The notes below the pieces were generated by a model. The model was not told the origin of the DNA. It did not search any database and worked only from the letters and a program-made list of their open reading frames with translations. A stretch of 55,704 bases of DNA, taken from positions 1 to 55,704 of the forward strand of contig JAFSRW010000082.1 in assembly GCA_017445925.1 (NCBI GenBank), given 5' to 3'. The stretch is from Bacteroidaceae bacterium. GTDB lineage: Bacteria; Bacteroidota; Bacteroidia; Bacteroidales; Bacteroidaceae. The position numbers were made by a program, and so were the translations under genes. This document shows positions 18,424-51,964 of this stretch, piece by piece (positions within the stretch are counted from its first letter, which is position 1; each line of letters opens with the position of its first letter).

Positions 18424-18454
18424 ATTGAACATTGAACATTGAGCATTGAACATT
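18424..18454 (+). repeat. left inverted repeat of the four-helix-bundle cassette
   Basis: Thirty-one bp of 9-bp units (ttgaacatt/ttgagcatt). It is the exact reverse complement of 18810-18840. Confidence 0.95.
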
Positions 18455-18818
18455 AATTATTTGCTTTTGTTGTTTTTATTATTTTTGTCAAAATTGCTGA
18501 TAGTTTGCTGCAATCATCATAAATAGACTCAAATTGGTTTTTATCAATTATATCTGACTCATAGAGTAATTCTAGCCAATATTCCGTCTCGTTAGCTTCC
18601 TTTAAGGCTATATTCATTTTATTGATAAAGTCCATTTTGCTTTGAGCATTGATACTTTCACGAACATTAGCACCTATACTTGTTCCACTTCGGAGAACTT
18701 GTTTTGATAAAACTTTTATGTTTTTTTCTTCATTTAGATACTTATAAAACCTGATTATTCGAAGCGCAAATGCTTTACTTGCTGTTTGAATCTGATTATC
18801 AGCTTTCATAATGTTCAA
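18453..18818 (-). CDS. four-helix bundle protein (S23/IVP/Avd-like)
   Basis: About 118-121 aa, all-helical. Matches the four-helix family first known from intervening sequences in 23S rRNA genes: AFALRIIRFYKYLNEEKN, QVLRSGTSIGANVRES, DFINKMNIALKEANETEYWL. Related Avd proteins bind RNA for diversity-generating reverse transcriptases. Base composition is visibly more AT-rich than the neighbours, a sign of transfer. The first codons lie in the right inverted repeat; MKADNQIQ at 18809 is an alternative start. Function here is unknown; its position suggests a role in moving the repeat. Confidence 0.85.
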   Translation of the reverse strand: MNIMKADNQIQTASKAFALRIIRFYKYLNEEKNIKVLSKQVLRSGTSIGANVRESINAQSKMDFINKMNIALKEANETEYWLELLYESDIIDKNQFESIYDDCSKLSAILTKIIKTTKANN

Positions 18819-18840
18819 TGCTCAATGTTCAATGTTCAAT
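18810..18840 (-). repeat. right inverted repeat of the four-helix-bundle cassette
   Basis: Exact reverse complement of 18424-18454. It also encodes the last residues and the stop codon of the NfeD-like gene. Confidence 0.95.
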
Positions 18841-19424
18841 GGTTCTACTTCCAATACCTTTTTCTCTATTACGCGTAGCACGCGCACCTTAGCGCCTGAG
18901 GGGATGGGGTCTCCAGAAGTGCGTGCATCCAGTTCCTGAACAGAACCGTTGAAGCTGATCTGAACCTTTCCCAAGCCTTCGTTCTGACCAGGGATGCGCA
19001 GATAGACATCGCACACCTTACCTACAGCATCGTTGACGTTGAAGGCCCCGTTGCTCTGCAACTTCATCATCTGGCGGAACAGGAAGATAAAGATAGCCAC
19101 AAAGAGGCAGCCCACCAGAATGGAGACCACACACAGGGCAATAGTATTGGGGATGGTGCTCCACAGGCTTACACCAGCCCAACCGAATCCTAACAGAAAA
19201 TAGAATATGTTACGAATGGAAAGTAAGTGCATGCTTCCTGCATTGTCCAGACTATCGGTGTCGGTACTGAAATCAACATCGGCATCACCAGAATCTATAT
19301 CACCCATGCCTGCAAAGGACATAGTCATCTGGATGATTACTACAATGGATGCAAAAATAGCGATACCCCAGTAAAAACGCAGGGTCGGATCAAGTTGGAT
19401 AAACCAATCAGAAAGGAAATTCAT
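18822..19424 (-). CDS. NfeD-like membrane protein with C-terminal OB fold
   Basis: 200 aa. Helices at about 18-38, 75-95 and 98-118 (FYWGIAIFASIVVIIQMTM, IFYFLLGFGWAGVSLW, ALCVVSILVGCLFVAIFIF), then a C-terminal beta domain (NDAVGKVCDVYLRIPGQNEG through GAKVRVLRVIEKKVLEVEP) typical of NfeD OB folds. NfeD proteins pair with SPFH proteins; floT lies downstream, now separated by the four-helix cassette. The C-terminus PLNIEH and the stop are made of the cassette's repeat. Confidence 0.82.
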   Translation of the reverse strand: MNFLSDWFIQLDPTLRFYWGIAIFASIVVIIQMTMSFAGMGDIDSGDADVDFSTDTDSLDNAGSMHLLSIRNIFYFLLGFGWAGVSLWSTIPNTIALCVVSILVGCLFVAIFIFLFRQMMKLQSNGAFNVNDAVGKVCDVYLRIPGQNEGLGKVQISFNGSVQELDARTSGDPIPSGAKVRVLRVIEKKVLEVEPLNIEH

Positions 19425-19522
19425 AAGTCTTCGTAAATTTAATGTTAGACGTGTATTTAATGTTTCTAAAAGACAAAGATACTCTTTTCTTAGTTATGAT
19501 GGCATAAAAAAACTGTTGATAG

Positions 19523-19553
19523 TTGTTAATTCTGTCACTTTTTTATAAGTTTG
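19523..19553 (+). promoter_or_regulatory. NUDIX gene promoter
   Basis: TTG at 19523-19525 and TAAGTTTG at 19546-19553, spacing 20 bp. Confidence 0.65.
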
Positions 19554-19583
19554 CAACTCGAAAATGACAAAAAACCTATAGAT

Positions 19584-20120
19584 ATGGCCCAACATCCTCT
19601 TAAAAAGTTTCATTTTTGTCCTTTATGCGGGTCGGGCAGATTTGTTGAGAACAACAATAAAAGCAAACGCTGTGAAGCCTGCGGTTTTGTGTATTACTTC
19701 AATCCCAGCGCCAGTACCGTAGCCGTGATAGTAAATGAGAAGAACGAACTGCTGGTAGTACGCAGAGCTAAGGAGCCCGCAAAGGGAACATTGGATTTGC
19801 CTGGCGGCTTTAGCGACTGCTACGAGACCAGTGAGCAGGGCGTGATACGTGAGGTGAAGGAAGAAACAGGCCTTATCGTAGAAAGTGTTAAGTTCCTGTT
19901 CAGTATTCCCAATATCTATCCGTATGGCGGTTTGGACATTCATACGATAGATATGTTCTACCTTTGCCATGTAAACAGCACAAAAAATGCTATTCCGGCT
20001 GATGATGCAGCAGAAATTATGTGGATTCCTTGGGAAGAGATAAAACCGGAAACCTTTGGTTTAACCTCAATCAGAAAGGGTGTGCAACAACTTTTAGCAA
20101 AAAAAATCCCTAATATATAA
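19584..20120 (+). CDS. NUDIX hydrolase with N-terminal zinc ribbon
   Basis: 178 aa. Zinc ribbon CPLCG-x-CEACG near residues 12-34, then a NUDIX domain with the full box GGFSDCYETSEQGVIREV followed by KEETG. Hydrolyses a nucleoside diphosphate linked to another moiety; the zinc ribbon is reminiscent of NADH pyrophosphatase, but the substrate is unknown. The ATG at 19584 (MAQHPLKKFHFCPLCG) is preferred over a TTG at 19551, which overlaps the -7 box. Confidence 0.9.
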   Translation: MAQHPLKKFHFCPLCGSGRFVENNNKSKRCEACGFVYYFNPSASTVAVIVNEKNELLVVRRAKEPAKGTLDLPGGFSDCYETSEQGVIREVKEETGLIVESVKFLFSIPNIYPYGGLDIHTIDMFYLCHVNSTKNAIPADDAAEIMWIPWEEIKPETFGLTSIRKGVQQLLAKKIPNI

Positions 20121-20142
20121 GGTGTAGAACAAAAAAATGACG

Positions 20143-20150
20143 TACCTTTG
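20143..20150 (+). promoter_or_regulatory. topA -7 element
   Basis: TACCTTTG, 29 bp before the topA ATG; no clear TTG at the expected -33 position. Confidence 0.55.
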
Positions 20151-20179
20151 CCGCCGCAATTGTAAAAAACGAAAGAAAG

Positions 20180-22504
20180 ATGAAGGATAATCTTGTAATA
20201 GTGGAGAGCCCGGCAAAGGCAAAAACTATAGAAAAATTCCTGGGAGAGGACTATAAGGTTGTTTCAAGTTACGGACATATCCGCGACCTGAAGAAAAGAA
20301 GTTTCAGTGTGGACGTTAATACGTTCGCTCCACAATATGAAGTACCCACCGACAAGAAAAGTGTTGTAGAGAATCTGAAGAAACTCTCTAAGGAGGCCAA
20401 GACCGTATGGCTGGCATCCGATGAGGACCGCGAAGGAGAAGCTATCAGCTGGCATTTGTACGAGGTTCTGGATCTGCACCCTGACAATACGCGCAGAATA
20501 GTTTTCCATGAGATTACAAAGCCTGCCATTCTGGAGGCTATAGATCATCCCCGTAAGATAGACCTGAATCTGGTAAACGCTCAGCAGGCCCGTCGTGTAC
20601 TGGACCGTATAGTAGGTTTTAAACTCAGCCCCGTGCTGTGGCGTAAGGTAAAGCCCGCTCTGAGTGCAGGTCGTGTTCAGAGTGTGGCCGTTCGTCTGAT
20701 CGTGGAACGCGAACGTGAGATTCAAAACTTCGTAGGCGATGACAATTTCCGTGTAACAGCCATCTTTACTAATGCCGAAGGTAGCGAGGTAAAGGCTGAG
20801 CTGAACCAGCGTTTTGCTACTCAGGAACAGGCTGAAGCCTTCCTGGAGAAATGTCGTTCTGTAAACTTTACCGTTCAGGATATAGCCACCAAGCCCCAGA
20901 AGCGCGTTCCTGCACCTCCCTTCACCACCAGTACCTTGCAACAGGAAGCTGCCCATAAGTTAGGCTTTACGGTTGCACAGACTATGATGGTGGCTCAGCA
21001 CCTGTACGAAAGCGGACGCATCACGTACATGCGTACGGATAGCGTGAACCTAAGTAAATTGTGCTTGGGAGCCAGCAAGCAGGTGATAACAGAGCAGATG
21101 GGTAAAGAATATGTAAAGAACCGTCAGTATCAGACTAATTCTAAGGGCGCTCAGGAAGCTCATGAGGCCATCCGCCCCACCTATATTGAACAGACTCAAA
21201 TAGAAGGTACTCAGCAGGAACGTAAGTTGTACGACCTGATCTGGAAGCGCACAATAGCCAGCCAGATGGCTGATGCTGAGATAGAAAAGACTCAGGTTAC
21301 CATCAGTATAGACGGCATGGAGGAATACTTTGTTGCCAATGGAGAGGTTGTGAAGTTCGACGGTTTCCTGCGTGTTTACAAAGAAACAGAGAACGAGGCA
21401 GAGCTGTCTGATGCAGAAGCAGAAGGTATTCTGCCCATGCTGACAGTTGGCGATTCTTTGCAGAGAAACACTATTGTTGCCACACAGCGTTTTGCACAGC
21501 GTCCCATCCGCTACAACGAAGCCAGTCTGGTACGCAAGTTGGAAGAGTTAGGTATTGGTCGACCCAGTACTTACGCTACCACTATTACCACCATTCAACA
21601 GCGCGAGTATGTTGCCAAGGGTGATAAGCCCGGCGAGGAACGTACATATCAGACGCTTACCTTGAAGGGCGATAAGATAACTAGCGCAAGTCATAAGACA
21701 ACCATTGGAGCAGAACGCGGCAAGTTGCTGCCTACCGATACGGGTATCGTAGTAAACGACTATCTGAGCGAGAACTTCCCCAGCATCATGGATTATAATT
21801 TCACAGCTGATATTGAGAAGGAATTCGATGAGATAGCAGAAGGAAAGATGGAGTGGACTGGGGTTATCAGCGACTTCTACAACGACTTCGACCCGCTGGT
21901 TGAGCGTGCCGGCAATACACATACCGAACACAAGGTTGGCGAGCGCATTCTGGGTAACGATCCCAAGACAGGTGAGCTTATTACCGTTAAGATAGGCCGA
22001 TTTGGTCCCGTGGTTCAGGTTGGTAGTTCCGATGGCGATACTAAACCCCGTTTTGCCCAGCTCAAGAAAGGTCAGACCTTAGAGACCATCACATTGGAGG
22101 AGGCATTGGAACTGTTCCGCCTGCCTCGTGAACTGGGTAAGTACTTAGGCAAGACGGTAACCATTGGAGCCGGCAAGTATGGTCCTTATGTGGTGCATAA
22201 CGGCACTTACGTTTCTATCCCCAAGGATGTTGACCCCCTGAAGATTACCTTCGAGGAGGCCGTTAAAATGATTCACAAGAAGCATGTTGAGGAAGAAGAG
22301 CGCCACTTGAAGAAGTTCGAGGGTACAGATATGGAGATTCTGAACGGCAGATATGGTCCCTACATTGTTTATAAGGGCAACAACTACCGTTTGCCAAAGA
22401 ATCTGCATGACCGCGTGAAGAACCTCACAGAGGAAGAGTGTATGCAGATAGTAAACGGACAGGCAGAGAAGTCGGGCGCTAAGACCACACGACGCAAGAA
22501 ATGA
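20180..22504 (+). CDS. topA: DNA topoisomerase I
   Basis: Type IA topoisomerase, 774 aa; relaxes negative supercoils. Toprim domain at the start (LVIVESPAKAKTIEKFLG; LASDEDREGEAISWHL), DNA gate with catalytic Tyr in ITYMRTDSVNLS near residue 290, and RPSTYATTITTIQQREYV. The C-terminus has two KYGPYVV/RYGPYIVYKG repeats, as in Bacteroidota enzymes, rather than the Cys4 zinc fingers of E. coli TopA. It ends in an ATGA overlap with aroK. Confidence 0.97.
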   Translation: MKDNLVIVESPAKAKTIEKFLGEDYKVVSSYGHIRDLKKRSFSVDVNTFAPQYEVPTDKKSVVENLKKLSKEAKTVWLASDEDREGEAISWHLYEVLDLHPDNTRRIVFHEITKPAILEAIDHPRKIDLNLVNAQQARRVLDRIVGFKLSPVLWRKVKPALSAGRVQSVAVRLIVEREREIQNFVGDDNFRVTAIFTNAEGSEVKAELNQRFATQEQAEAFLEKCRSVNFTVQDIATKPQKRVPAPPFTTSTLQQEAAHKLGFTVAQTMMVAQHLYESGRITYMRTDSVNLSKLCLGASKQVITEQMGKEYVKNRQYQTNSKGAQEAHEAIRPTYIEQTQIEGTQQERKLYDLIWKRTIASQMADAEIEKTQVTISIDGMEEYFVANGEVVKFDGFLRVYKETENEAELSDAEAEGILPMLTVGDSLQRNTIVATQRFAQRPIRYNEASLVRKLEELGIGRPSTYATTITTIQQREYVAKGDKPGEERTYQTLTLKGDKITSASHKTTIGAERGKLLPTDTGIVVNDYLSENFPSIMDYNFTADIEKEFDEIAEGKMEWTGVISDFYNDFDPLVERAGNTHTEHKVGERILGNDPKTGELITVKIGRFGPVVQVGSSDGDTKPRFAQLKKGQTLETITLEEALELFRLPRELGKYLGKTVTIGAGKYGPYVVHNGTYVSIPKDVDPLKITFEEAVKMIHKKHVEEEERHLKKFEGTDMEILNGRYGPYIVYKGNNYRLPKNLHDRVKNLTEEECMQIVNGQAEKSGAKTTRRKK

Positions 22505-23061: not shown

Positions 23062-23235
23062 AGTTTAAAGTTGAGAGTTGAGAGTTTAGAGGCAGTGCGG
23101 GCTTTGCCCGATAGTTGAGAGTTTAAAAAGTTTATTGGTTATTGGTTATAGGTTATTGACTTTGGCTTTTGGCTGTTAGCGGTTAGCGAAAACAAAGCTT
23201 CAATGCTCAATGTTCAATGCTCAATGTTCAATGAA
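23058..23235. repeat. composite tandem arrays between aroK and speA
   Basis: 7-bp gagagtt units, ggttatt/ggttata units, ggctttt/ggctgtt units, and finally the 9-bp caatgttcaatgctcaatg array (23200-23233). A small hairpin (agtgcgggctttgcccga region) interrupts. No gene is seen. Confidence 0.85.
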
Positions 23236-23243
23236 ATAAAAAA

Positions 23244-25250: not shown

Positions 25251-25252
25251 CA

Positions 25253-26113: not shown

Positions 26114-26644
26114 ATGAAAAAGATCAGTTTCCGAGATGATGTGTTGCCACTGAAGAACAGGCTTTACCGTCTGGCGCTGCGCATCACGCAGAACCCCGCA
26201 GAGGCGGAGGATGCAGTACAGGATTCGCTGATTAGAGTTTGGGAACACCGCGATGAGTGGGAGCAGATTGAGAGCATGGAAGCTTACGCATTGACCATCT
26301 GCCGCAACATCTCACTCGACATGGCAGGCAAAGCCGGACGTGGAAACGTACAATTAAGTGAAGAATTAAGAGTGAAGAATGAAGAATGCTCAATGTTCAA
26401 TGTTCAATGTTCAATGGAAGAAAAGTTCGACCAAACGGAGCGTCTCTCGTTAGTAAGAAAAATAATGGATACATTGCCCGAGGTGCAGCGCAGTATTATG
26501 GAACTGCGAGATATTGAAGGCAAAACATATCAAGAGATAGCAAACATACTGAAGCTGAGCGAGACGCAGGTAAAGGTTTACCTTCACAGGGCCAGAACCA
26601 GTGTTCGCCAGCAGGCAGAAAAAATAGAGAAATATGGATTATAA
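26114..26644 (+). CDS. ECF-family RNA polymerase sigma factor
   Basis: 176 aa. Region 2 (ITQNPAEAEDAVQDSLIRVW) and region 4 (LPEVQRSIMELRDIEGKTYQE, then LKLSETQVKVYLHRAR). The linker contains EELRVKNEECSMFNVQCSM, encoded by stacked gaagaat and 9-bp aatgttc arrays (26358-26416). It overlaps the anti-sigma gene by 11 bp. Confidence 0.93.
   Translation: MKKISFRDDVLPLKNRLYRLALRITQNPAEAEDAVQDSLIRVWEHRDEWEQIESMEAYALTICRNISLDMAGKAGRGNVQLSEELRVKNEECSMFNVQCSMEEKFDQTERLSLVRKIMDTLPEVQRSIMELRDIEGKTYQEIANILKLSETQVKVYLHRARTSVRQQAEKIEKYGL
26356..26417. repeat. tandem arrays inside the second sigma-factor gene
   Basis: agtgaag/aatgaag units followed by four 9-bp caatgttcaatgctc-type units, read in frame as ECSMFNVQCSM. 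Confidence 0.88.
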
Positions 26645-27134
26645 GTACATAGAACAACTTTTGGAACGCTATTGGGCGTGCGAGACTTCTCTACAGGAGG
26701 AGCAGATTCTGCGTACTTTCTTCCAGCAGGCTGAGGTTCCCGCTCATCTGATGCCCTACAAGGCCGTATTTGATGTACAGCAGGAACAGGCAGAACCCAC
26801 TCTGCGTGAGGATTTCGATGTCCGTATGTTGCAGATGGTAGACAACGATGAATGTTCAATGTTCAATGTTCAATGTTCAATGACCAAAGCACAACCTTTA
26901 ACAGGCTGGCGTCGCTCTTGGCGTCCCTTTTATCAGGCAGCAGGCTTGGTAGCATTGATTCTCACCATTGGAATGGCTGCTCAGCGTAGTTTTGATGGCT
27001 CTGAAGATCCTCAGCAGGACCAGTATGCTCAAATAGACAGTATGGAGAGTCCTGTACAGGAGGCAACGCCCTTGCCTGAACAGCAGGCTGCGCTTGCTGT
27101 TGAGCAGACCGACTCCATCAACTTAACAAGATAA
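26634..27134 (+). CDS. anti-sigma-type membrane protein
   Basis: 166 aa. N-terminal cytoplasmic helices (MDYKYIEQLLERYWACETS) similar in layout to the other anti-sigma protein in the window, one transmembrane helix (FYQAAGLVALILTIGMAA), and an acidic Gln/Pro-rich periplasmic tail. NDECSMFNVQCSM just before the membrane segment comes from the 9-bp array (26849-26882), the same peptide as in its sigma partner. Confidence 0.78.
   Translation: MDYKYIEQLLERYWACETSLQEEQILRTFFQQAEVPAHLMPYKAVFDVQQEQAEPTLREDFDVRMLQMVDNDECSMFNVQCSMTKAQPLTGWRRSWRPFYQAAGLVALILTIGMAAQRSFDGSEDPQQDQYAQIDSMESPVQEATPLPEQQAALAVEQTDSINLTR
26849..26882. repeat. 9-bp tandem array inside the second anti-sigma gene
   Basis: Four aatgttc-containing 9-bp units; frame preserved because the unit is a multiple of three. 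Confidence 0.88.
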
Positions 27135-27374: not shown

Positions 27375-30300
27375 ATGACTAAACGAATGATATTTCTTCT
27401 GTTTGCTTTTGCGCTGATGGCTAAGGCAGATAATTTGCAGGGGTTCCTTTATGGCTTGCAAAGTGCTCCTGACGGAACGGAGTGGCAGAACCCCGAGTTG
27501 CTATCGCTGAACAAGGAACAGCCACGGGCCTATATGTTCTCTTACGCCTGGAAGGGACAAGCGCTGAGGGTGCTCCCCGAACATAGCACATTTTATCAGA
27601 GCCTGGACGGAATGTGGAAATTCCATTGGGTTCCCAGTCCGGAGGAACGACCCAAGGACTTCTATAAGCCCGATTTTGATGTATCGGCTTGGGACGATAT
27701 TAAGGTTCCCGGATGCTGGAATGTGCAGGGATTGCAGAAGGACGGGAGCATGAAGTACGGCGTTCCCGTCTATGTGAACCAGCCTGTGATTTTCTACCAC
27801 GAGGTGAAGGAAGGTGATTGGCGCGAAGGTGTGATGCGTAAGCCTAAGGATGAACGTTACACCACCTTCAAATACCCCAACGAGGTAGGCTCTTACCGCC
27901 GGTCTTTCGTTCTTACCACCGGATGGCATCAAAACCATACTAAGGACGTGTTCATCAACTTTGATGGTGTGGACTCTTTCTTCTACCTATGGATAAACGG
28001 AAAGTATGTGGGCTTCTCGAAGAACAGCCGAAACACAGCCAGCTTTAATATTACACCTTATCTGAATCATTCCGGCGAGAATGTGCTGGCCGTAGAGGTT
28101 TATCGCAGCAGCGACGGCTCGTTCCTGGAAGCGCAGGATATGTTCCGCTTGCCTGGTATCTTCCGCAGCGTCTATCTGACGGCTATGCCCAAGGTGCGGA
28201 TTAGCGACCTCGTTGTTCGAACTACAAAGCTCAGCAAGGATGAGGCAACTATTAGCATCGACGGAACTTTTGCTAACAAGAGCGGTAAGAAGCAAAAGGG
28301 ACTGAAGGTGTATTACAGCATCTATCCTGTAAAACTGTATTCCGACGAATGTGCCGACCCCGTGAAACAAGTAGAGGTTCCCATAGCAGACAACTGTCAA
28401 CAGACAACAGACAATGTTCAATGTTCAATGTTCAATGTTCAATGTTCAATGGAAAATCCTCGTCCTTGGAGCGCTGAGGCTCCGTATCGCTATGTGCTTG
28501 TGGCTGAGTTGAAGGATAAGAAAGGAAAACTGTTGGACTGCACCAGTACCTATTTTGGCATTCGTACCGTAGAGATAAAGGATACACCAGCCAGCGAGGA
28601 TGAATTTGGCTTGGCTGGTAGGTATTTCTATGTGAACGGAAAGCCTGTGAAGCTGAAAGGTGTGAACCGTCATGAGACCAACCCGACTCTGGGTCATGCT
28701 ATCACACGTGAACAGATGACCGAAGAGGTTATGCTGATGAAGCGAGGCAACATCAACCATGTGCGCACATCGCATTACAGCAACGATCCCTACTGGTATT
28801 ATCTCTGCGACAAATACGGTATCTATCTGGAGGATGAATGTAACATAGAGAGCCACGAATATTATTATGGTAAGGAATCGCTCTCGCATCCCAAGGAATG
28901 GAAGGCTGCTCATGTGGCCCGAAATATGGAAATGGTACATGCGCACGTGAACCATCCCAGCATTGTTATCTGGAGCTTGGGCAACGAGGCTGGACCGGGC
29001 GAGAACTTCAAGGCTGCCTACGATGCGATTAAGGCGTTCGATACCAGTCGTCCTGTTCAGTATGAGCGCAACAATGATATTGTGGATATGGGTTCCAACC
29101 AATATCCCAGCGTGGCCTGGGTACAACAGGTGGCCAAGGGAAAATCTAATGTGAAGTATCCTTACCACATCTCGGAATATGCCCACAGCATGGGTAACTC
29201 ATTAGGTAACCTGGTGGATTACTGGCAGGCAATGGAGAGTACCAACTACTTCTGCGGAGCGGCCATCTGGGACTGGGTAGATCAGGCCATTGACACTTAT
29301 ACCAAGGACGGCAGGAAGTATATGGGCTATGGCGGCGACCACGGCGACTGGCCCAACGACGGTATGTTCTGCATGAACGGCATCATGTTGCCCGACCTTA
29401 CACCCAAGCCTCAGTATTACGAGGTAAAGAAGGTGTATCAGAATGTGGGCGTAACCCTGAATGGACTCAAGGAAGGAGATAGAGGGGTGATAGCCGACTT
29501 CACCATCTTCAACAAAAACTACTTTGAGCCAATCACTTCCAGGGACTATGACATTGTGGCATATACAGTATTGGATGGAGAGAAAATGGGGGATGTACCT
29601 ATCTCTCTGCACGAAGACATTCAGCCTCGCAAGTCGGTTAGATGCTACTGCCCTGTTAATAAATACGTTGATGGGGAGGGCGAGTACTTCTTGAATGTGG
29701 AGTTCCGTTTGAAGGAGGATAAGCCTTGGGCCAAGAAGGGCTATGTGCAGATGGCAGAGCAACTGTTTATTGAGGACACACGAAAGGACGGCTCGGGTTG
29801 GCAACGTGGGGTTCTGCAATTATCGGAAGAGGGAGAAAAGACGGTGGTAAGCGGTAAGAACTTCAACGTCACCTTTGATAATACAACCGGCAGCCTTTGT
29901 GGAATACAATATGATGGTAAGATCATCCTGAAGGATTCGCCGTTGCATCTTTCTGCTTTTCGTGCTCCTGTGGATAACGACAATTGGGCAAGAAACCAAT
30001 GGTTTGAGCAAGGATTGTACGACTTGCAGCATAAGGTCATCGGAAAGCCCTATATCGAGAAGTCGCCCGAAGGTCCTGTTGGCATTGCCTATACCATTGT
30101 AAGCCAAGCCAGAGGCAGGGGCGGAGTCAAGTATCGTCCAGGCAAGGCTGGGCAACCCTACGAGAGTGTGGCAGAGGCAACAGGAGAAGGTGATCATGTT
30201 TCCTTTACTACAACGCAAACCTATATTATCTATCCCAATGGTACCGTTGTGTTGGCAAGCAGCATCGTTACCAGCAATCCGGATTTGGCGCTTCCCAGAC

Positions 30301-33504: not shown

Positions 33505-35520
33505 ATGGAAGAAACAAAACAAGATAGTGTACAGGAGAAGGTGAATTACGACGAGGGTAATATCCGTCACCTCTCCGATATGGAACATATCCGCACGCGT
33601 CCAGGTATGTACATTGGGCGTCTCAGTGACGGTTCGCAAGCTGAAGATGGTATATATGTGCTCCTGAAGGAAGTCATCGACAACAGTATTGATGAGTTCA
33701 AAATGGGTGCGGGCAAACGTATTGAGGTTGATATCGAAGATAATCTGCGTGTCAGAGTTCGTGATTATGGTCGTGGTATTCCTTTGGGAAAACTCATTGA
33801 GGCCGTATCAATGTTGAATACGGGTGGTAAGTACGACAGCAAGGCGTTCCAGAAGAGTGTTGGTCTGAATGGTGTGGGTCTGAAGGCCGTTAACGCCCTG
33901 AGTGTACGGTTTGAGGTACAGAGTTTCCGTGACGGACAGGTACGAAAGGCAGTATTCTGCAAGGGTATTCTGGAAAGTGACACAACAGAAGCTACGCAGG
34001 ACGAGAACGGCACATCTGTATTCTTTGAGCCAGATGCGTCACTCTTCAAACATTATGCTTTCCGAGGTGAGTTTGTAGAGGTAATGCTTCGCAACTACAC
34101 CTACCTAAACACAGGATTGACCGTTATGTTCAACGGAAGGCGTATCCTTTCGCGCAACGGACTTAGCGACCTCCTTTCCGACCGTATGGACTACGAACCG
34201 TTGTACCCCATAGTACACCTTCGTGGCGAAGATATAGAGATTGCGTTTACTCATACCAAGCAGAATGGCGAGGAGTATTATTCTTTTGTCAACGGACAGA
34301 ATACCACATTGGGTGGAACGCATCAGGCAGCTTTTAAGAAGTATATAGCTGAGGTCATCAAGGACTATAGCGGCAAGAACTATGAGTATGCCGACATCCG
34401 AAACGGTATGGTGGCTGCCATCAGTATCAATATCCAAGAGCCCCTCTTTGAGAGCCAGACAAAGGTGAAGTTGGGTAGTACCACTACGGAACCGGAAGGC
34501 GGAATCTCCATCGATAAGTTCATTGGAGATTTCGTGAAGGAACAAGTGGACAACTATCTGCATAAGAATACCGATGTGGCAGATGTTATCTTGCAGAAGG
34601 TGGCAGAGAGTGAGAAGCTCCGCAAGGAAATGGCTGGTGTGGCCAAGAAAGCACGCGAGATGAGCAAGAAGGCCAATCTGCATAATAGGAAACTACGTGA
34701 CTGTCGTGTACATCTGACAGACTCCAAAGGTGAGTTGCAAGAAGAGAGCAGCATCTTCATTACGGAGGGTGATTCTGCCAGCGGAAGCATCACCAAGAGC
34801 AGGGATGTAAATACACAGGCAGTATTCTCGTTACGAGGAAAGCCTCTCAACTGCTACAAGCTGACCAAGAAGGTGGTCTATGAGAACGAGGAGTTCAACC
34901 TATTGCAGGCTGCCCTTAACATAGAAGACGGACTGGATGGCCTTCGTTACAATAAAGTGATTGTGGCAACCGATGCCGATGATGACGGTATGCACATCCG
35001 TCTGCTGATGTTGACCTTCTTCCTGAAATTCTTCCCGGAATTAGTGAAGAAGGGGCACGTGTTCATCTTGCAGACTCCACTTTTCCGTGTTCGTGGCAAG
35101 AAGACAAAGATAGGAAAGGCTAAGTTGAATGCCATCGAGACCGAGCTTGAAGCACGAAACAATGCCGAGGACACTTCTGCCTACAGCGATGGAAAGCGTC
35201 CCCGCCACCTCAGTCTTTCAAAGGATTTTGTTACCCAGTATTGCTATTCTGAGGAGGAGCGCTTGCAAGCTATAGATGACCTTGGGCCAGAGCCGGAGAT
35301 AACACGTTTCAAAGGTCTGGGTGAGATTAGTCCCGAGGAGTTCCGTAACTTCATTGGTCCTGATATCCGTCTTGACCAGGTGACCTTACATAAGTCCGAC
35401 CAAGTGGCAGAACTTCTGAATTTCTATATGGGCGACAATACAATGGAGCGTCAGAACTTTATCATTGACAATCTGGTGATTGAGGAAGATTTGCCAGAAG
35501 AAGATAGCCCCCTCCCCTGA
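33505..35520 (+). CDS. parE: type IIA topoisomerase B subunit (topoisomerase IV ParE type)
   Basis: 671 aa. GHKL ATPase domain ([48 protein letters not shown]), transducer domain, Toprim ([23 protein letters not shown]) and C-terminal [12 protein letters not shown]. It lacks the long insert of E. coli-type GyrB. ParE rather than GyrB is inferred from the gene order with coaD, S41 protease and ybeY known in Bacteroidales. The final residues (EEDSPLP) and stop lie in the left inverted repeat of the DUF559 cassette. Confidence 0.9.
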
Positions 35521-35544
35521 CCCCTCCCCCGGGGAGGAGGGGAA
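35506..35544 (+). repeat. left inverted repeat of the DUF559 cassette
   Basis: agccccctcccctgacccct then cccccggggaggagggga. It pairs in inverted orientation with 35961-35995: 12 outer and 17 inner bases identical with a short variable gap. Confidence 0.92.
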
Positions 35545-35557: not shown

Positions 35558-35944
35558 ATGACAACGGAAACCAATCGGTATAAATGGGCTTCTCCTGACA
35601 GATATGGACTGTTGAGAGAGTTTGCTAAAGAGAATAGAAAACACCAGACGTTAGCAGAATCTTTCCTGTGGGAATATCTGAGACAGAAACATCTGGGGGT
35701 AGAATTTAGACGGCAACATATTATCAGTGATTATATTGTTGATTTTGTCTGCCTTGATAAAAGTTTGATTATAGAAGTAGATGGTGCATATCATGCAGAA
35801 CGTGAACAGGAAGAAGATGATTTGGTGCGTACCCTACATTTGGAGCAAATAGGATTTAAGGTGTTGCGAGTTAAAAACGAAGATGTGCAATACAATGTGG
35901 AGAAAGTTTTGGAGAGTATAAATAATGAACTCAAAAAACAATAA
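35558..35944 (+). CDS. DUF559 endonuclease-domain protein
   Basis: 128 aa. Full DUF559 signature: AESFLWEYLRQKHLGVEFRRQH, YIVDFVCLDKSLIIEVDGAYH, and DDLVRTLHLEQIGFKVLRVKNEDV. The fold is related to Vsr and very-short-patch/restriction endonucleases, with the acidic residues in VDFVC and IEVDG and the Gln/His positions kept. It lies entirely inside inverted repeats with no other gene. A DNA-cleaving role in moving its flanking repeat is inference. Confidence 0.9.
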   Translation: MTTETNRYKWASPDRYGLLREFAKENRKHQTLAESFLWEYLRQKHLGVEFRRQHIISDYIVDFVCLDKSLIIEVDGAYHAEREQEEDDLVRTLHLEQIGFKVLRVKNEDVQYNVEKVLESINNELKKQ

Positions 35945-35960: not shown

Positions 35961-35995
35961 TCCCTCCTCCCCGGGGGAGGGATGGGGAGGGGGCT
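35961..35995 (-). repeat. right inverted repeat of the DUF559 cassette
   Basis: tccctcctccccgggggagg then gatggggagggggct. The ATG inside it (35982) appears to serve as the coaD start. Confidence 0.92.
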
Positions 35996-46190: not shown

Positions 46191-46222
46191 GATATACATT
46201 AATTCTTTTTTTCTCCTGCTTG

Positions 46223-46251
46223 CAAAGATACAAGAAAAAATCCGGAAGCAA
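46223..46251 (-). promoter_or_regulatory. promoter of the mutarotase-symporter gene
   Basis: Minus-strand TTG (46249-46251) and TATCTTTG (46223-46230), spacing 18 bp. Confidence 0.65.
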
Positions 46252-46310
46252 GCATAACTTTCGGATTTTATTTTCTGTACGTCTAAAGATGCAAAAAACA
46301 GATATTCTTT

Positions 46311-46350
46311 TCTTTGTGATTCAGATAAAAGTTGTATATTTGTGGGCGAG
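46311..46350 (+). promoter_or_regulatory. acetyl-CoA synthetase promoter (extended motif copy 3)
   Basis: TTG at 46314-46316 and TATATTTG at 46335-46342, spacing 18 bp; flanking bases match the bcp and AlkD-like promoters. Confidence 0.78.
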
Positions 46351-46388
46351 TTGCGATGAAATTTACTAACGTCGTATACATTTTCATT

Positions 46389-48467
46389 ATGATTAACCGA
46401 GAACTACTTGATCCCCAGAGCATTGTCGTTATAGGAGGCTCTAACAACGTACACAAACCCGGTGGAGCCGTGGTACGTAATATCCTGCAAGGTGGCTACC
46501 AGGGTACCCTGCGTGTGGTAAACCCCAAGGAAAACGAGGTGCAGGGCATCCGGGTGTTCCATGATGCCCGCGAGCTGCCACCCACCGAGTTAGCCATATT
46601 GGTGGTTCCTGCCAAGCTGTGCCCTGATACGGTTGACCTGCTGGCCCGCGAAAAGGGGACCAAGGCGTTCATCATCATCTCTGCCGGATTTGGCGAGGAG
46701 ACCAAGGCGGGAGCCCTGTTGGAACAGCGCATTTTGGACACCTGCGAAGAGTACGGGGCAGCACTCATCGGGCCCAACTGCATAGGACTGCTCACACGCA
46801 ACCACCACTCGGTTTTCACCCAACCCATTCCTGCACTCAACCCCAAGGGAGTGGACTTTATCAGCGGCTCGGGTGCCACAGCAGTATTCATACTGGAGAG
46901 TGCCGTTATCAAGGGGCTGCAGTTCAACAGCGTCTGGAGCATCGGCAACGGCAAGCAGATAGGCATCGAGGATGTGCTGCAGTACATGGACGAGCACTTC
47001 AACCCCGAAACCGATTCGCACGTAAAGTTACTCTATATCGAGAACATCTCCAACCCCGACAAGTTGCTCTACCACGCCAGCAACCTTATTAAGAAAGGGT
47101 GTCGCATTGCAGCTATCAAGGCTGGTTCCAGCGAGAGTGGCAGTCGGGCTGCATCCAGTCATACTGGAGCCATCGCCAGCAGCGATTCCGCAGTCGAGGC
47201 ACTGTTCCGCAAGGCCGGCATCGTACGCTGCTTCAGTCGAGAGGAACTCACCACCGCCGGCTGCATCTTTATGTGCGCAGCCTCAACTTTCAACTCTCAA
47301 CTGACTCTAAACTTTGCAATAGTTACTCACGCCGGAGGTCCGGGCGTTATGCTCACCGATGCCCTCTCGAAAGGTGGACTGAGCGTGCCTAAGATTGAGG
47401 GGCCCATGGCTGAAGAGCTGAAGGAGAAACTCTTCCCAGGCTCTTCCGTTGCCAACCCCATCGACATACTTGCTACAGGCACGCCCGAGCACTTGGGGAT
47501 TGCCATCGACTACTGCGAACAGAAGTTCGATAATATAGATGCCATTGCCGTTATTTACGGAACACCAGGCCTGACCACGCTATACGAGGCCTACGAGACG
47601 CTGCATCAGAAGATTCTCGAATGCCGAAAACCTATCTTCCCCATCCTGCCCAGTCTGCATACAGCAGGTCCCGAGGTGGCAGAATTCCTACAGAAGGGAC
47701 ATGTCAACTTCTCCGACGAGGTAACGCTGGCCACTGCCCTCTCACAGATTATGCATACCCCACAGCCTGCACCTCCCGAGGTACAACTCTACGGTATCGA
47801 CATTCTCCAACTTCATAAGATTATTTCGGGAATAACCACCAACGGTTATGTGTCACCCCAGACCGTTCGCGACATCCTCTCCTGTGCCGGCATCCCCATG
47901 GTGCCCGAGATGGTCTCGGACCAAAAGGACGCATTGATAGCCTTTGCACAGCGCATAGGTTATCCCGTAGTGGCCAAGGTAGTAGGACCCATTCACAAGA
48001 GCGATGTGGGTGGAGTCACCCTTAACATCCGCACGCCCGAACACCTTGCGTTGGAGTTCGATCGTATGATGCAAATCGATGGTGCCACAGGTGTTATGGT
48101 GCAGAAAATGCTTAAGGGAACCGAACTGTTTATCGGAGCCAAATACGAGGAACGCTTCGGACATGTGGTACTCTGCGGCCTAGGTGGCATCTTCGTCGAG
48201 GTGCTCAAGGACGTCCGTTCCGGTCTGGCTCCACTTTCTTATAGCGAGGCCTACTCCATGATACGTTCCCTCCGCGGCTATAAGATACTGAAAGGTACGC
48301 GCGGACAGCAGGGCATCAACGAACAGAAATACGCCGAGATTATCGTCCGCCTCTCTACCCTCCTCCGCTTTGCCACAGAAATCAAGGAAATGGATATCAA
48401 TCCCCTTCTGGCAGATGCCGACAACGTAGTAGCAGTAGATGCGCGAATTCTCATTGAAAGAGGTTAG
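46389..48467 (+). CDS. acetate--CoA ligase (ADP-forming), fused alpha/beta
   Basis: 692 aa. Makes ATP and acetate from acetyl-CoA, or the reverse. CoA-binding domain (PQSIVVIGGSNNVHKPGGAVV), succinyl-CoA ligase-like domains (SGSGATAVFI; the likely phospho-His in SSHTGA), and C-terminal ATP-grasp (YPVVAKVVGPIHKSDVGGV, GCLGGI-type loop VVLCGLGGIFVEVL, EIKEMDINPLL). The ATG at 46389 (MINRELLDP) matches the family; earlier in-frame starts overlap the promoter. A 7-bp array inserts STFNSQLTLN near residue 300, between domains. Confidence 0.92.
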   Translation: MINRELLDPQSIVVIGGSNNVHKPGGAVVRNILQGGYQGTLRVVNPKENEVQGIRVFHDARELPPTELAILVVPAKLCPDTVDLLAREKGTKAFIIISAGFGEETKAGALLEQRILDTCEEYGAALIGPNCIGLLTRNHHSVFTQPIPALNPKGVDFISGSGATAVFILESAVIKGLQFNSVWSIGNGKQIGIEDVLQYMDEHFNPETDSHVKLLYIENISNPDKLLYHASNLIKKGCRIAAIKAGSSESGSRAASSHTGAIASSDSAVEALFRKAGIVRCFSREELTTAGCIFMCAASTFNSQLTLNFAIVTHAGGPGVMLTDALSKGGLSVPKIEGPMAEELKEKLFPGSSVANPIDILATGTPEHLGIAIDYCEQKFDNIDAIAVIYGTPGLTTLYEAYETLHQKILECRKPIFPILPSLHTAGPEVAEFLQKGHVNFSDEVTLATALSQIMHTPQPAPPEVQLYGIDILQLHKIISGITTNGYVSPQTVRDILSCAGIPMVPEMVSDQKDALIAFAQRIGYPVVAKVVGPIHKSDVGGVTLNIRTPEHLALEFDRMMQIDGATGVMVQKMLKGTELFIGAKYEERFGHVVLCGLGGIFVEVLKDVRSGLAPLSYSEAYSMIRSLRGYKILKGTRGQQGINEQKYAEIIVRLSTLLRFATEIKEMDINPLLADADNVVAVDARILIERG
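47281..47316. repeat. 7-bp tandem array inside the acetyl-CoA synthetase gene
   Basis: caacttt-caactct-caactga-ctctaaa units, in frame. Confidence 0.75.
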
Positions 48468-48676
48468 TAGCTTAGTAGGTTAATAGGTTATCGTCGAGGG
48501 GCAAGAGGTAAGAGGTAAGAAGGAAGAGCTCAGAACTAAGAGCTCAGAGCCAATAGCCAACAGCCAATAGCCACGAGCCAAGGGCCAAGAGCCAAAGTCT
48601 TAAACTCTTGAACTTTTGAACACCTTGAACCATCGTTAAGGTTAAGGTTAGCGTTAACGTTAAGGTTAGCGTTAAA
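48464..48676. repeat. composite tandem arrays upstream of the ugd 3' end
   Basis: About 210 bp with no gene: ttagtagg (8 bp), aagaggtaag, gctcagaactaag, gccaata/gccaaca (7 bp), ttgaac (8-9 bp), and gttaag/gttagc/gttaac (6 bp) blocks in order. The same modules, partly inverted, recur at 50008-50220. Confidence 0.88.
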
Positions 48677-48677
48677 T

Positions 48678-49997
48678 CTAATCTCGCTCAAAGATGTCAC
48701 GAGTATAGACCTTCTCCTTTACATCGTGCAGACATTCATCAAATCTGTTTGCTATGATAACCCTGCTCTCAGCCTTGAACTTCTCTAAATCGTTCACCAC
48801 AAGGCTTCCGAAGAATGTATCACCATCCCTCAACGTAGGCTCGTAAACTATAACCATAGCACCCTTCGCCTTGATACGCTTCATAATGCCTTGGATGGCA
48901 CTCTGACGAAAATTGTCGCTGTTGCTCTTCATGGTCAAACGATACACGCCTATCGTTGGCACTCTTAGTTGATGATGTAGAGTTGAGAGTTTAGAGTTGT
49001 ATTCATTATTCTCAGTATAGGCATAATAGCCTGCCATTTTCAGCACTTGGTCGGCAATAAAGTCCTTTCTGGTTCTGTTACTCTCCACAATAGCGCTCAT
49101 CATATTCTGGGGTACATCAGCATAGTTAGCCAACAACTGCTTGGTATCCTTAGGTAAGCAATAACCACCGTAACCAAAACTCGGGTTATTGTAATGCGTA
49201 CCAATACGCGGATCCAATCCAACTCCTTCAATAACGGCTCGGGAATCCATACCCTTCACCTCAGCATAGGTATCCAACTCGTTAAAGAAAGAGACACGCA
49301 GTGCCAGATAAGTATTGGCAAACAATTTTACCGCCTCTGCTTCTTTCGCACCCATGAAAAGTGTGGGAATATCCTTTAGGATAGCACCTTCTACCAGCAG
49401 AGAAGCAAACACTTTAGCCATTTCTTTCATCAACTCAACATTCGTAAGTTTCTTAATGGCCTCATTCTCTTCTTCATAGCCAGGCATCATCTTGGGATAG
49501 CCTACAATAATTCGGCTTGGATAAAGGTTATCGTATAGAGCTTTACTTTCACGTAAGAACTCAGGGCTGAACAGCAGGTTAAGACTCTTTATGCCTTTTG
49601 CTGCATACTTCACGTAAAGGCTACGAGTATAACCTACCGGGATAGTGGATTTGATAACCATCACAGCCTCTGGATTCACCTTCAGCACCATATCTATCAC
49701 CTCCTCCACATGGCTCGTATCAAAGAAATTCTTCTGCGGGTCATAGTTGGTAGGTGCAGCAATCACAACAAAGTCGGCATCCCTATATGCTGCCTCACCA
49801 TCCAGCGTAGCAGTCAAATCCAATTTTCTTTCTGCCAGATACTTTTCAATATAGTCATCCTGTATTGGCGACTGTTTCTTATTTATCAGCTCCACCTTCT
49901 CAGGTATCACATCAACGGCAATCACGTGGTTGTGTTGTGCCAGCAGTGTGGCAATACTCAGACCCACATATCCGGTTCCTGCAACTGCTATATTCAT
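48678..49997 (-). CDS. ugd: UDP-glucose 6-dehydrogenase
   Basis: 439 aa; makes UDP-glucuronate for surface glycans. N-terminal Rossmann motif [38 protein letters not shown] and catalytic Cys in [14 protein letters not shown] near residue 260. A 7-bp array adds [11 protein letters not shown] (48967-49002) just before the C-terminal NAD-binding segment [19 protein letters not shown]. Last gene of the minus-strand nucleotide-sugar series. Confidence 0.93.
48967..49003. repeat. 7-bp tandem array inside ugd
   Basis: gatgatgtagagttgagagt followed by ttagagttg, in frame. Confidence 0.75.
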
Positions 49998-50004
49998 ATT
50001 TATT

Positions 50005-50220
50005 CTATTTTTAGTTTAAGAAGTTTACCGTTTACTATTTAATAGCTTAGTAGCTTAAGCACTTTGGCTATTGGCCATTGGCCGTTGGCTAACTTCTAGT
50101 TCAAGATGTTCAAGGGTTCAAGAAGTTCAAGATTTTAGCTCTTCCTTCTTACCTCTTCCTTCTTACCTCTTGGCTTCTATAACCAATAACCAATAACCCA
50201 TAACCTATAACCATTCACAA
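50005..50220. repeat. composite tandem arrays upstream of ugd
   Basis: gtttacc, ttagtagc, ggctatt/ggccatt (7 bp), gttcaaga/gttcaagg (8 bp), ttccttcttacctc and ataacca (7 bp) blocks. No gene or firm promoter is seen. Confidence 0.88.
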
Positions 50221-50221
50221 C

Positions 50222-51505
50222 CTAAAACCCTGCTCTGCGAATCGTGAGTCTAATCGCCTCAGGATGAGCAGCAACAAAGACCGGAGCATCCTCTACCACG
50301 CAGGCAAGGTAGCCACCGCCACCAGCTCCAGGCATTTTCCATGCCAATACTCCGGGCACTGCAGACCACTTATCAATATATTCTTGAACTCTTGAACCCT
50401 TGAACTCTTGAACCCTTGAACCCTTGAACCCTTGAACTTCTTGAACTCTTGAACCTTGAACCTCCTCTAAACTCTCAACTCTACACTCTAAACTCTCAGA
50501 TGGCTTTACCATCCCTGGGAACATCGCAACTTGTGCCTCGAACGAAGCCTTATACGCTTTGGCGAAAGCCTGCAGGTCTTTTGCCATGATTGCCTGCCAA
50601 CAGTCATAGGCGGCCTTTGCCAATGCTTTAACCTTAGGCTCGGTAATATCCTTTCCTTCTACCACCGAACATCCATATTTTCGTGGCTCCATGGGTATCA
50701 TAATCAAGTGGTTCTCTAACCAAGAGAGTATGCCCTCGTCATTACAAGTTTCTATCTTCTTTGGCCAAAAACTATTGTCATAATAATGGCGGCAGAGACC
50801 CGGGATGCAGATTCCTATGCTATCCTGTGCCCCGCTAATGATACCATCTGATCGTTCGGGATCGTTCTCGAAACAGAACACCAGTTTGGCCAGTGTCTCA
50901 GGATCCATATTAGGCAACTGATAAGGCCATATCTTCTTAATCATATTTCGGGTGCTGGTGCTCAGTCCGCAACGCTCCCGTATTTCAAATGTCGGTTCCA
51001 GGCTGATGGTAATAGCCCATCCCGGTGCGTAACAACTAACGTAAGGCTGGTCTATCCACGTGCCAGCTAGATCAAGACGGGTTGGAATTTGACTTTCAGT
51101 CTTTTTCAAGTCTGTACTGGAACGGGCCTTCAAACCTTTCTGAGGAACGCGCTCCAATACCACATATTCTATTCCGTGCTCCTCGCAGAACTTCCGCTTA
51201 TCTTCATTCCCGCCGTCACTATTCACCACCAAAATGTCCGGCTTCAGGGCCTCAACGGTTGGCACGAAGTCCATGATTCCACTACCGGCATTGATAAACG
51301 CGTCCTTCACGTATCGGATGCTCTTCACCATAAACAGTCGTTCCTGCTCACTGTATATCGTTTTGTGGTGCTTATAACCTTCAATGGTCTTATCACTGCC
51401 AATGCCGACATACAGGTCGCCATACTCCGCCGCCTGGCGAAAGAACTCTACATGACCTGAATGTAACAGGTCGTAGCAGCCGCTGACAAATACTTTCTTT
51501 TTCAT
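50222..51505 (-). CDS. cytidylyltransferase-like domain fused to a GHMP kinase-like domain
   Basis: 427 aa. Residues 1-135 are a nucleotidyltransferase with GCYDLLHSGHVEFF (HxGH motif) and YSEQERLFMVKSIRYV; residues 140-427 resemble a GHMP sugar kinase (PTRLDLAGTWIDQPYVSC, SIGICIPGLC, MPGAGGGGYLACVV). Such fusions would activate a sugar phosphate with a nucleotide for LPS or capsule. The sugar is unknown. Near residues 350-385 an 8-bp array encodes an 8-residue periodic peptide (GSRVQEVQ, GFKGSRVQ, EFKGSRVQ) in frame. Confidence 0.85.
   Translation of the reverse strand: MKKKVFVSGCYDLLHSGHVEFFRQAAEYGDLYVGIGSDKTIEGYKHHKTIYSEQERLFMVKSIRYVKDAFINAGSGIMDFVPTVEALKPDILVVNSDGGNEDKRKFCEEHGIEYVVLERVPQKGLKARSSTDLKKTESQIPTRLDLAGTWIDQPYVSCYAPGWAITISLEPTFEIRERCGLSTSTRNMIKKIWPYQLPNMDPETLAKLVFCFENDPERSDGIISGAQDSIGICIPGLCRHYYDNSFWPKKIETCNDEGILSWLENHLIMIPMEPRKYGCSVVEGKDITEPKVKALAKAAYDCWQAIMAKDLQAFAKAYKASFEAQVAMFPGMVKPSESLECRVESLEEVQGSRVQEVQGFKGSRVQEFKGSRVQEYIDKWSAVPGVLAWKMPGAGGGGYLACVVEDAPVFVAAHPEAIRLTIRRAGF
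50375..50502. repeat. 8-bp and 7-bp tandem arrays inside the nucleotidyltransferase-kinase gene
   Basis: About ten cttgaact/cttgaacc units, then five 7-bp aactcta/aactctc units; the longest in-gene array of the window. Confidence 0.92.
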
Positions 51506-51534
51506 ATCAAGAATTTGAGAATTTGGGAATTTAA
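51506..51534 (+). repeat. left inverted repeat of the GxxExxY cassette
   Basis: atcaagaatttgagaatttg followed by ggaatttaa; inverted match to 51937-51964, 25 of 28 bases. Confidence 0.88.
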
Positions 51535-51935
51535 CCTATGCTTGCGCATTCTCTATGATGCCACTCGTTAGGATACCATTTGTATTCCAAACTCGTGGTA
51601 CCGAAGTTCAATAATAAACCTAATTTGTGATTGCTCACATGTAGGTAATTTATTATCTGAGCTTCAAATTCCCCGATTATCTCAGACATTGCTTTTAATT
51701 CAACACCTAATTTATTTTCTATCAAAAAGTCATAAAAGAAATCGTGTTCAAGTTTTACACCATGAAACACAAGATCAATATGCTTTTCTCTTTCGTACTC
51801 AATCCCGTTTTCTTTTAGTAGCACCTCAAACGCATCTTGATAAACTTTCTCCTTGAAACCACATCCCATTTCACGATGTAATTGCATCGCTATCCCAAGG
51901 ATTCTCTTGCTTAGTTCCGGATATAAAAGTGCCAT
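51531..51935 (-). CDS. GxxExxY protein (nuclease-like family)
   Basis: 134 aa. Name-giving motif in GCGFKEKVYQDAFEVLL, followed by DFFYDFLIENKLGVELKA and ISNYLHVSNHKLGLLLNFG-type C-terminus (here INYLHVSNHKLGLLLNFG). The D-x-n-ELK pattern resembles PD-(D/E)XK nucleases. More AT-rich than its neighbours. Start and stop lie at the inner edges of the inverted repeats. Function unproven. Confidence 0.88.
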   Translation of the reverse strand: MALLYPELSKRILGIAMQLHREMGCGFKEKVYQDAFEVLLKENGIEYEREKHIDLVFHGVKLEHDFFYDFLIENKLGVELKAMSEIIGEFEAQIINYLHVSNHKLGLLLNFGTTSLEYKWYPNEWHHRECASIG

Positions 51936-51936
51936 G

Positions 51937-51964
51937 AAAATTCTCTAATTCTCTAATTCTTGAT
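51937..51964 (-). repeat. right inverted repeat of the GxxExxY cassette
   Basis: ttctctaattctctaattct followed by tgat, touching the fcl stop codon. Confidence 0.88.

Follow-up and report, generated by a model that had tools for sequence, protein, structure and literature searches.

The DNA examined here, hereafter called the window, is a stretch of 55,704 nucleotides (contig JAFSRW010000082.1, labelled C41 in the analysis) from a Bacteroidaceae bacterium whose 3.3-Mb genome assembly, GCA_017445925.1, comprises 100 contigs. The window contains three small genes of unrelated families, S23 (a four-helix-bundle protein), DUF559 and GxxExxY, and each of them fills a compact cassette bounded by two inverted copies, or arms, of a repeat of its own, as a first-pass annotation of this DNA had proposed.

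The S23 gene (18453..18809, minus strand) begins with an ATG at 18809-18807 that touches the 5' arm, and the list of open reading frames (ORFs) offers an alternative call at 18453-18818 with a TTG start. The 3' arm in the sense of the gene (18424..18455) is an inverted array of ATTGAAC units to which the 5' arm (18809..18840) is complementary over all 32 nt (100%), and in the folded transcript the two arms pair as a long closing stem (z -7.0). This cassette lies between an NfeD-like gene and a flotillin gene, and its 5' arm holds the stop codon (18822-18824) of the NfeD-like gene (18822-19424), whose product ends in ...VEPLNIEH*.

The DUF559 gene (35558..35944, plus strand) is flanked by a 5' arm (35506..35541), consisting of a C-rich head and a palindrome, and by a 3' arm (35962..35995). 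The segments 35510-35541 and 35962-35993 are each 32 nt long and 84% complementary, each arm being itself palindromic, and an additional pair of 23 nt (78%) extends to 35506 and 35995. The stop codon of a gyrB/parE-type gene (35518-35520) is located inside the left arm, and the right arm contains an ATG at 35982 in the reading frame of coaD. The GxxExxY gene (51531..51935, minus strand) has arms of 27 nt with 89% complementarity; the 3' arm (51506..51532) lies directly against the ATG with which the next gene starts (51505), and the 5' arm (51938..51964) overlaps the stop codon of an epimerase gene by one base. The neighbouring stop and start codons that the cassette ends had been said to touch or form could thus be located for all three units.

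Profiles from Pfam and NCBIfam uphold the family assignments: PF05635 and TIGR02436 for S23, PF04480 for DUF559 (a PD-(D/E)XK / Vsr-like nuclease), and TIGR04256 and PF13366 (PDDEXK_3) for GxxExxY. The acidic PD-(D/E)XK core is kept in both of the latter, with D43, E54 and D56 invariant in 13 DUF559 sequences and D63, E73 and K75 invariant in 14 GxxExxY sequences. Judged from these residues, both proteins are probably nuclease-like, in agreement with the initial proposal.

The heptamer ATTGAAC has 20 matches in the window (0 expected), six of which belong to the S23 arms, the rest occurring as solo arrays. On the minus strand, these comprise an ATTGAAC-type array (23199..23233), an array in frame within the ORF of an extracytoplasmic function (ECF) sigma factor, between its region 2 and region 4 matches (26385..26416), one in frame within the ORF next to it (26851..26882), and one of 5.7 copies in frame within a family-2 glycoside hydrolase ORF (28412..28451); a partial array is present at about 25176. 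The three in-frame arrays (26385-26416, 26851-26882 and 28412-28451) put the peptide CSMFNVQCSM into three neighbouring proteins, and in-frame heptamer insertions of this kind can make new protein linkers. Overall, the window yields 26 period-7 TRF rows with a score of at least 40, a number in which both S23 arms are counted and some rows overlap, versus 0 in five Markov shuffles. The complete DUF559 palindrome occurs a single time in the window, with no solo copy, its CCCTCCCC core having nine matches (1.5 expected), of which five lie beyond the cassette. For the GxxExxY unit, a single additional match, a weak one, is present in the window. The claim that two of the three repeats recur as solo copies across the window therefore holds for S23 and falls short for the other families.

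The architecture is not peculiar to this contig. Throughout the source genome and its relatives (61 genomes), we compared 77 S23 loci (searches gave 37 of these and another 40 were retrieved, among more matches listed), 32 DUF559 loci and 32 GxxExxY loci with 118 random ORFs of 95-160 aa from the sampled stretches, using ungapped inverted-repeat (IR) scores. Scores of at least 15 were found at 60/77, 23/32 and 21/32 of these loci, respectively, and at 0/118 control ORFs; at a threshold of at least 12, the counts were 71/77, 26/32 and 23/32 versus 1/118. The window repeats are thus not a matter of chance, and most other copies of these genes are likewise bounded by inverted repeats, which was one of the checks suggested at the outset. 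When 5' flanks of one S23 locus were mispaired with 3' flanks of another, the 95% and 99% levels of the null were 12 and 18, its upper tail being raised because some S23 loci share units. Within the source genome, arms are present at all eight strong PF05635 matches (there are 11 matches, three weak ones standing outside the test), each locus having its own repeat unit except for two that share ATTGAAC. All three DUF559 genes there have palindromic arms, and one of the three GxxExxY genes has a clear arm pair within 200 bp, a longer and less clear pair being seen at a second one (L012) with 300-bp flanks.

In more distant sets, S23 loci scored at least 14 in 21/30 gammaproteobacterial cases (null 95% 11) and in 12/22 cases from Bacteroidota genomes chosen for TAACTGA arrays (null 95% 11; eight weak loci excluded from the 22). 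The set reached via TCAGTTA arrays (cyanobacteria, Chloroflexi, Verrucomicrobia and others) gave 24/30 at this threshold, its own null having a 95% level of 19 owing to shared units, above which 15/30 still lie. In addition, three DUF559 loci on cyanobacterial plasmids (L492, L494 and L495) are flanked at either end by palindromes of the CCCCTAAATCCCC..GGGG or the CCCCTCTCC..GAGGGG type, with IR scores of 16, 13 and 10, and DUF559 arms therefore seem to extend beyond Bacteroidota; the Azospirillum and Sinorhizobium loci (L491 and L493) are without such palindromic arms. A plasmid of Bacteroides finegoldii carries a GxxExxY cassette with CACAGAGGA-type 9-bp arms that starts two bases behind radA (L498:1122-1593).

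Each protein family is associated with its own type of arm. The best period is 7 in 45/62 S23 arms and 9 in 11/21 GxxExxY arms, and DUF559 arms consist of an outermost C-rich head and a CCCTCCC-loop-GGGAGGG-type palindrome. Among S23 loci, the similarity of the units grows with protein identity (Mantel rho 0.26, 0/500 permutations), and all 13 pairs with at least 80% protein identity, several of them orthologous, share k-mers or units. At one orthologous S23 locus that is 77-89% identical throughout (L019/L032/L027/L209), the unit has been switched in both arms together, and the arms therefore evolve in concert.

The placement of the cassettes is equally regular. In a set of 64 S23 cassettes with arms scoring at least 14, 62 have an upstream neighbour, which is co-directional in 58 cases, versus 37/55 for control ORFs (Fisher p 0.0003). 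The arm starts no more than 25 bp from the upstream stop codon in 52/58 S23, 15/19 GxxExxY and 12/21 DUF559 cassettes, and this stop lies at or within the arm in 20/58 S23 cassettes. S23 5' arms contain stops in all three frames in 38/61 cases in sense and 22/61 in antisense.

Evidence for movement comes from the limits of homology and from empty sites. In five pairs of unlinked S23 copies (L006/L227, L006/L221, L006/L241, L217/L224 and L219/L243), DNA homology ends no more than 11 bases from the arm ends; the remaining pairs compared were either orthologous, with homology continuing, or lost homology inside the cassette. The arms likewise bound the S23 homology that a contig of a Fischerella genome shares with Nostoc plasmids. 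Both genes of the NfeD/flotillin junction were found on one stretch in 28 relatives; none of these has S23 at the junction, and several hold other solo arrays there. At a first plasmid junction, filled with an S23 cassette in Trichormus variabilis 0441 and Scytonema sp. NIES-4073, only 13 bp separate the two genes in Aulosira laxa NIES-50, Nostoc linckia NIES-25 and Fremyella diplosiphon NIES-3275 (three records examined of six such matches), with flanks 96-98% identical between filled and empty sites. The insert begins directly after the TAA stop and has GTAA(T) on both sides, possibly a short target duplication of 4-5 bp. Nostoc sp. C052 pC052_E (L484) retains at the same junction the 5' arm and a short remnant of the S23 gene, without the 3' arm, and because of this remnant it is a decayed cassette rather than a solo array.

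A second plasmid junction is filled in Nostoc C052 pC052_D and N. edaphicum and empty in two Nostoc C057 plasmids, with flanks of 92 and 97% identity; the empty junctions of this group (L478) are less clean than those of the first (L480). Two further plasmids have inverted arms with the gene absent at this junction, of the GGGAAC type in Nostoc ATCC 53789 and of the AATTCAAA type in a third Nostoc C057 plasmid (loci L488 and L490). Mobility of the S23 cassettes is well supported by these observations, including the empty-site alleles that had been called for. DUF559 and GxxExxY cassettes are probably mobile as well, given their architecture, their placement and, for DUF559, dispersed palindromes.

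Solo repeats were surveyed in genome samples of no more than 40 kb each. In 34 genomes of the genus, period-7/8 arrays are denser where S23 genes are more numerous (rho 0.59, p 0.0002), with exceptions including G017 and G003. In 17 genomes, the sharing of 6-mers between 87 solo arrays and the retrieved S23 arms is twice as high within a genome as between genomes (0/500 permutations). This is the relation between gene and cognate solo repeat that the suggested checks had asked about. Beyond the S23 arms, arrays of the same unit form five inverted pairs, with gaps of 29-408 bp, versus two direct ones. DUF559 palindromes number up to about 100 in a single genome and are more frequent in genomes in which the gene was found (22 versus 15 genomes, p 0.0017). 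A second class of arrays, whose period is 22 bp and whose units are often palindromic, is also common in these samples (55 arrays versus 69 of period 7; for example, L137:10457-10581, L158:6423-6495 and L160:4983-5106), and the cassettes do not explain it.

Taken together, these data would lead one to think that the three units are small mobile cassettes, from three families that share one life style and have protein-matched arms, a reading to which we assign a probability of about 0.7. For S23, it draws on the architecture, the pairing of arms with protein, the placement, the arm-bounded homology, the empty sites and, at junctions shared with these, decayed cassettes and arm pairs lacking the gene; for DUF559 and GxxExxY, it draws on architecture, pairing and placement. 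The initial suggestion of small, putatively autonomous mobilisers with solo derivatives is supported, in its S23 part by the empty sites, arm-bounded homology and cognate solo arrays.

Mechanistically, the cassette gene, which would have no promoter of its own, lies between inverted copies of a short repeat that matches the protein it encodes. The cassette would land in sense on a stop codon or immediately after one, which makes co-transcription with the host gene possible with little harm. A heptamer array runs through all three reading frames, 7 being indivisible by 3; S23 5' arms often carry a stop in each of them, and such an arm can therefore replace the stop it hits. The protein may bind or cut its own arms as a single strand or hairpin, mobilising both arms and solo copies in the manner of REP/RAYT systems (repetitive extragenic palindromes and their associated tyrosine transposases), presumably with the help of replication or repair enzymes of the host. 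Solo arrays, like arm pairs that lack a gene, would be derivatives or separate arm insertions and would account for many dispersed heptamers. For S23, the homologue structures 2rld and 2gsc contain five chains each, and the Coxiella S23 protein is described in the accessible part of the report on it as a toroidal homopentamer (PMC4990558). The simplest picture for this family, which is a guess, would be a ring that takes one repeat unit per subunit, in keeping with arms of four to five heptamers. No known catalytic motif is evident in S23, and the cutting and joining of its cassettes must therefore fall to another enzyme.

Several observations weigh against this reading, the missing S23 motif among them. 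IR scores are below 12 at 6/77 S23, 6/32 DUF559 and 9/32 GxxExxY loci (some cut by contig ends), several of the passing GxxExxY repeats are not plain tandem units, and some loci are orthologous, so that the counts are not all independent. The exact DUF559 palindrome pattern is absent from 8/9 outgroup genomes with DUF559, and one search around a plasmid locus gave no empty site for this family. The candidate GTAA/GTAAT duplication comes from a single event. S23 genes occur without sampled period-7/8 arrays in G003, G010, G012, G029 and G033; conversely, G468 and G469 carry TAACTGA-type arrays with no S23 detected, and G018 holds 97 DUF559 palindromes with no gene detected. Solo arrays show no strand bias (21/39). 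The correlation between DUF559 gene and palindrome counts (rho 0.53) was rejected as specific proof, as it barely exceeds those with S23 (0.50) and GxxExxY (0.43) counts, and DUF559 palindromes less than 200 bp apart are not significantly biased towards inverted pairs (10 inverted, three direct and two ambiguous among the matches listed, from three genomes; p 0.09).

S23 proteins are related to Avd, the partner of the reverse transcriptases of diversity-generating retroelements. The main rival explanation is mobility at the RNA level: once the arms had paired within the transcript, RNase III would release a gene-bearing RNA, as in intervening sequences (IVSs) of 23S rRNA, and a reverse transcriptase acting in trans would copy it back. 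The window S23 transcript does close on its arm stem (z -7.0), and sense placement behind a co-directional gene suits a transcript-based cycle; the Coxiella IVS, as far as the accessible text of PMC4990558 goes, contains heptamers and inverted repeats and is a substrate of RNase III. Against it, gene-less pairs and solo arrays are widespread too, and DUF559 and GxxExxY are nuclease-like. We regard the RNA route as unlikely.

Less probable still is that the arrays came first, the heptamers being microsatellites grown by replication slippage and the small genes homing-type invaders. Cassette junctions do hold solo arrays in other species (NfeD/flotillin, and the epimerase/next-gene junction in L043 and L476), and the concerted unit switch at L019/L032/L027/L209 needs slippage or template switching. 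Yet invasion of a direct array would give direct rather than inverted flanks, the clean empty sites in three records (L481-L483) are free of arrays beside filled ones, and the homology of unlinked copies takes in the arms. That these are ordinary immobile genes, with arms serving as terminators or mRNA stabilisers as their position at gene ends and strong stems might suggest, is very improbable, because empty alleles with flanks 96-98% identical refute it for one S23 cassette, unlinked copies are homologous over the cassette only, and the arm sequence matches within a gene's cassette, differs between genes and has dispersed solo copies.

The mobile-cassette reading bears on several repeats already in print. 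TAACTGA arrays are abundant in Beggiatoaceae, cyanobacteria and Bacteroidetes, and the accessible part of the paper names no mechanism (MacGregor 2015, PMC4679880). The text of that paper has 0 matches to "s23", whereas here related TCAGTTA units are S23 arms: TCAGTTA arrays flank an S23 gene on both sides in a Nostocales genome (L336), a Bacteroidota S23 gene (L289) has a 5' TCAGTTA arm and a degenerate 3' side, and at L282 a TAACTGA array lies on one side of S23 only, the other, 5' flank being different. Microcystis and Chloroflexi S23 genes (L427, L436 and L439-L442) have TCAGTTA on one side and TCAGTAA, TCAGTGA or mixed units opposite. Among 80 loci listed by the TCAGTTA scan there is one S23 gene (L336), and most of these arrays are therefore solo. 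S23 is found somewhere in 41/43 genomes hosting TCAGTTA arrays, a figure for which the base rate in those phyla is unmatched; it was not found in the other two of the 43, a Parabeggiatoa genome and one Microcystis, and the Beggiatoaceae case therefore stays unexplained here. Co-occurrence within Bacteroidota was rejected as evidence: S23 exceeds the cut-off in 13/18 genomes chosen for TAACTGA, and likewise in 49/61 genomes (the source genome and relatives) that were selected without regard to the repeat, so that for TAACTGA only adjacency and arm identity count.

Similarly, GGGAATC heptamers in Xanthomonas and Nostoc are described, in the part of the report available, as mostly comprising four intergenic units and as often forming inverted pairs, of which one Xanthomonas genome has 70 and another 75 (Rehm 2015, PMC4692102). 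That text also has 0 matches to "s23", and gammaproteobacterial S23 loci (L444, L447 and L468) have related GGGA(A/G)T-type arms. Cyanobacterial "short tandemly repeated repetitive" sequences may belong to the cassette-derived repeats as well.

The closest known relative of the S23 cassette is the 23S rRNA IVS of Leptospira and Coxiella, which, from the accessible sections of PMC4990558, shares with it the S23/IVP gene, a cassette of about 430 bp and inverted repeats. In the Coxiella IVS, which RNase III cleaves, there are inverted repeats, and tandem heptamers precede the S23 ORF; the same sections call the function and origin of the S23 protein and the IVS unclear (PMC4990558). Of these features, the window cassette has the S23/IVP ORF, with PF05635 and TIGR02436 above the cut-off, and the inverted-repeat stem around it. 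Rfam gave no rRNA in the window locus (L006) or in the eight other loci scanned, the sole match being a tRNA in L472. The IVS is treated as an insertion in rRNA, whereas the present cassettes lie behind the stops of protein genes in several phyla and also exist in solo, gene-less and empty forms; the IVS looks like a member of the cassette family that landed in rRNA.

REP/RAYT systems (REPtron, TIRtron) have a gene between inverted repeats that also occur solo or paired, according to the accessible text of PMC3733652. S23 and DUF559 resemble them in that the inverted flanking repeat is also found elsewhere in the genome, and GxxExxY in its inverted arms; unlike REPs, the arms of S23 and GxxExxY cassettes are built as tandem arrays instead of palindromes. 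No transposase family, including the HUH Y1 tyrosine type, is among the Pfam/NCBIfam matches of the three proteins (PF05635, PF04480 and PF13366). Of the marks of classical insertion sequences and miniature inverted-repeat transposable elements, inverted repeats and empty sites are seen here, along with a candidate duplication of 4-5 bp from one event, and no transposase family was matched. The DUF559 protein matches 3hrl (E 8.7e-17) and 3r3p, "Mobile intron protein" (E 0.0011), and weakly matches homing-endonuclease families in PHROGs and PADLOC. However, Vsr-like homing endonucleases such as 3r3p have an intron setting, whereas DUF559 sits in an inverted-repeat cassette behind a stop codon. 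GxxExxY is named once beside a CRISPR-type reverse transcriptase in the part of PMC8934634 available. Among open-access papers, as far as their text was accessible and with subscription papers and preprints outside the search, none was found that links S23 outside rRNA, DUF559 or GxxExxY to inverted arms or solo arrays. To our knowledge, the wider class has not been described, as had been stated at first; the S23 branch extends the known IVS and was in this form partly in print.

In its boldest form, which we hold tentatively and at somewhat less than even odds, the proposal is of a mobile class with no recognisable recombinase that targets stop codons. Pentameric S23 rings would read their own heptamers, one unit per subunit, movement and decay would yield the previously unexplained TAACTGA, GGGAATC and cyanobacterial repeats of several phyla, and DUF559 and GxxExxY would be convergent, with palindromic and 9-bp arms. 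Such cassettes are a candidate origin of the short tandem repeats dispersed in several phyla, and they would place the S23 protein and the 23S rRNA IVSs in a general context. Because a pairing of gene with repeat is predicted, an old question turns into a binding assay and a cross-strain comparison. The proposed selfish strategy, settling on a stop codon and supplying replacement stops in every frame, would be near-harmless, and one geometry in three unrelated protein families suggests a general niche for very small mobile DNA.

Some further observations should be noted. A viral contig scan with the window S23 gave no confirmed relative; two phage records from human faeces (MT835815.1 and MT835590.1) encode S23 homologues (two matches). 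In the gammaproteobacterial set, contig C1 of a 1.5-Mb genome (G822) has about 10 weak S23-family genes on one strand with equal or near-equal scores. The nucleotide-sugar epimerase gene beside the GxxExxY cassette (window 51506-52905) has homologues near S23, DUF559 or GxxExxY genes elsewhere (L043, L075, L055, L080, L082, L033 and L464), and its neighbourhood is possibly a hotspot. Between the epimerase and the next gene, the site of the GxxExxY cassette in the window, L476:1512-1752 contains seven stacked period-7 arrays of several units. Finally, in L474 and L475, S23, DUF559 and GxxExxY genes lie together within about 8 kb of one sugar-gene region.

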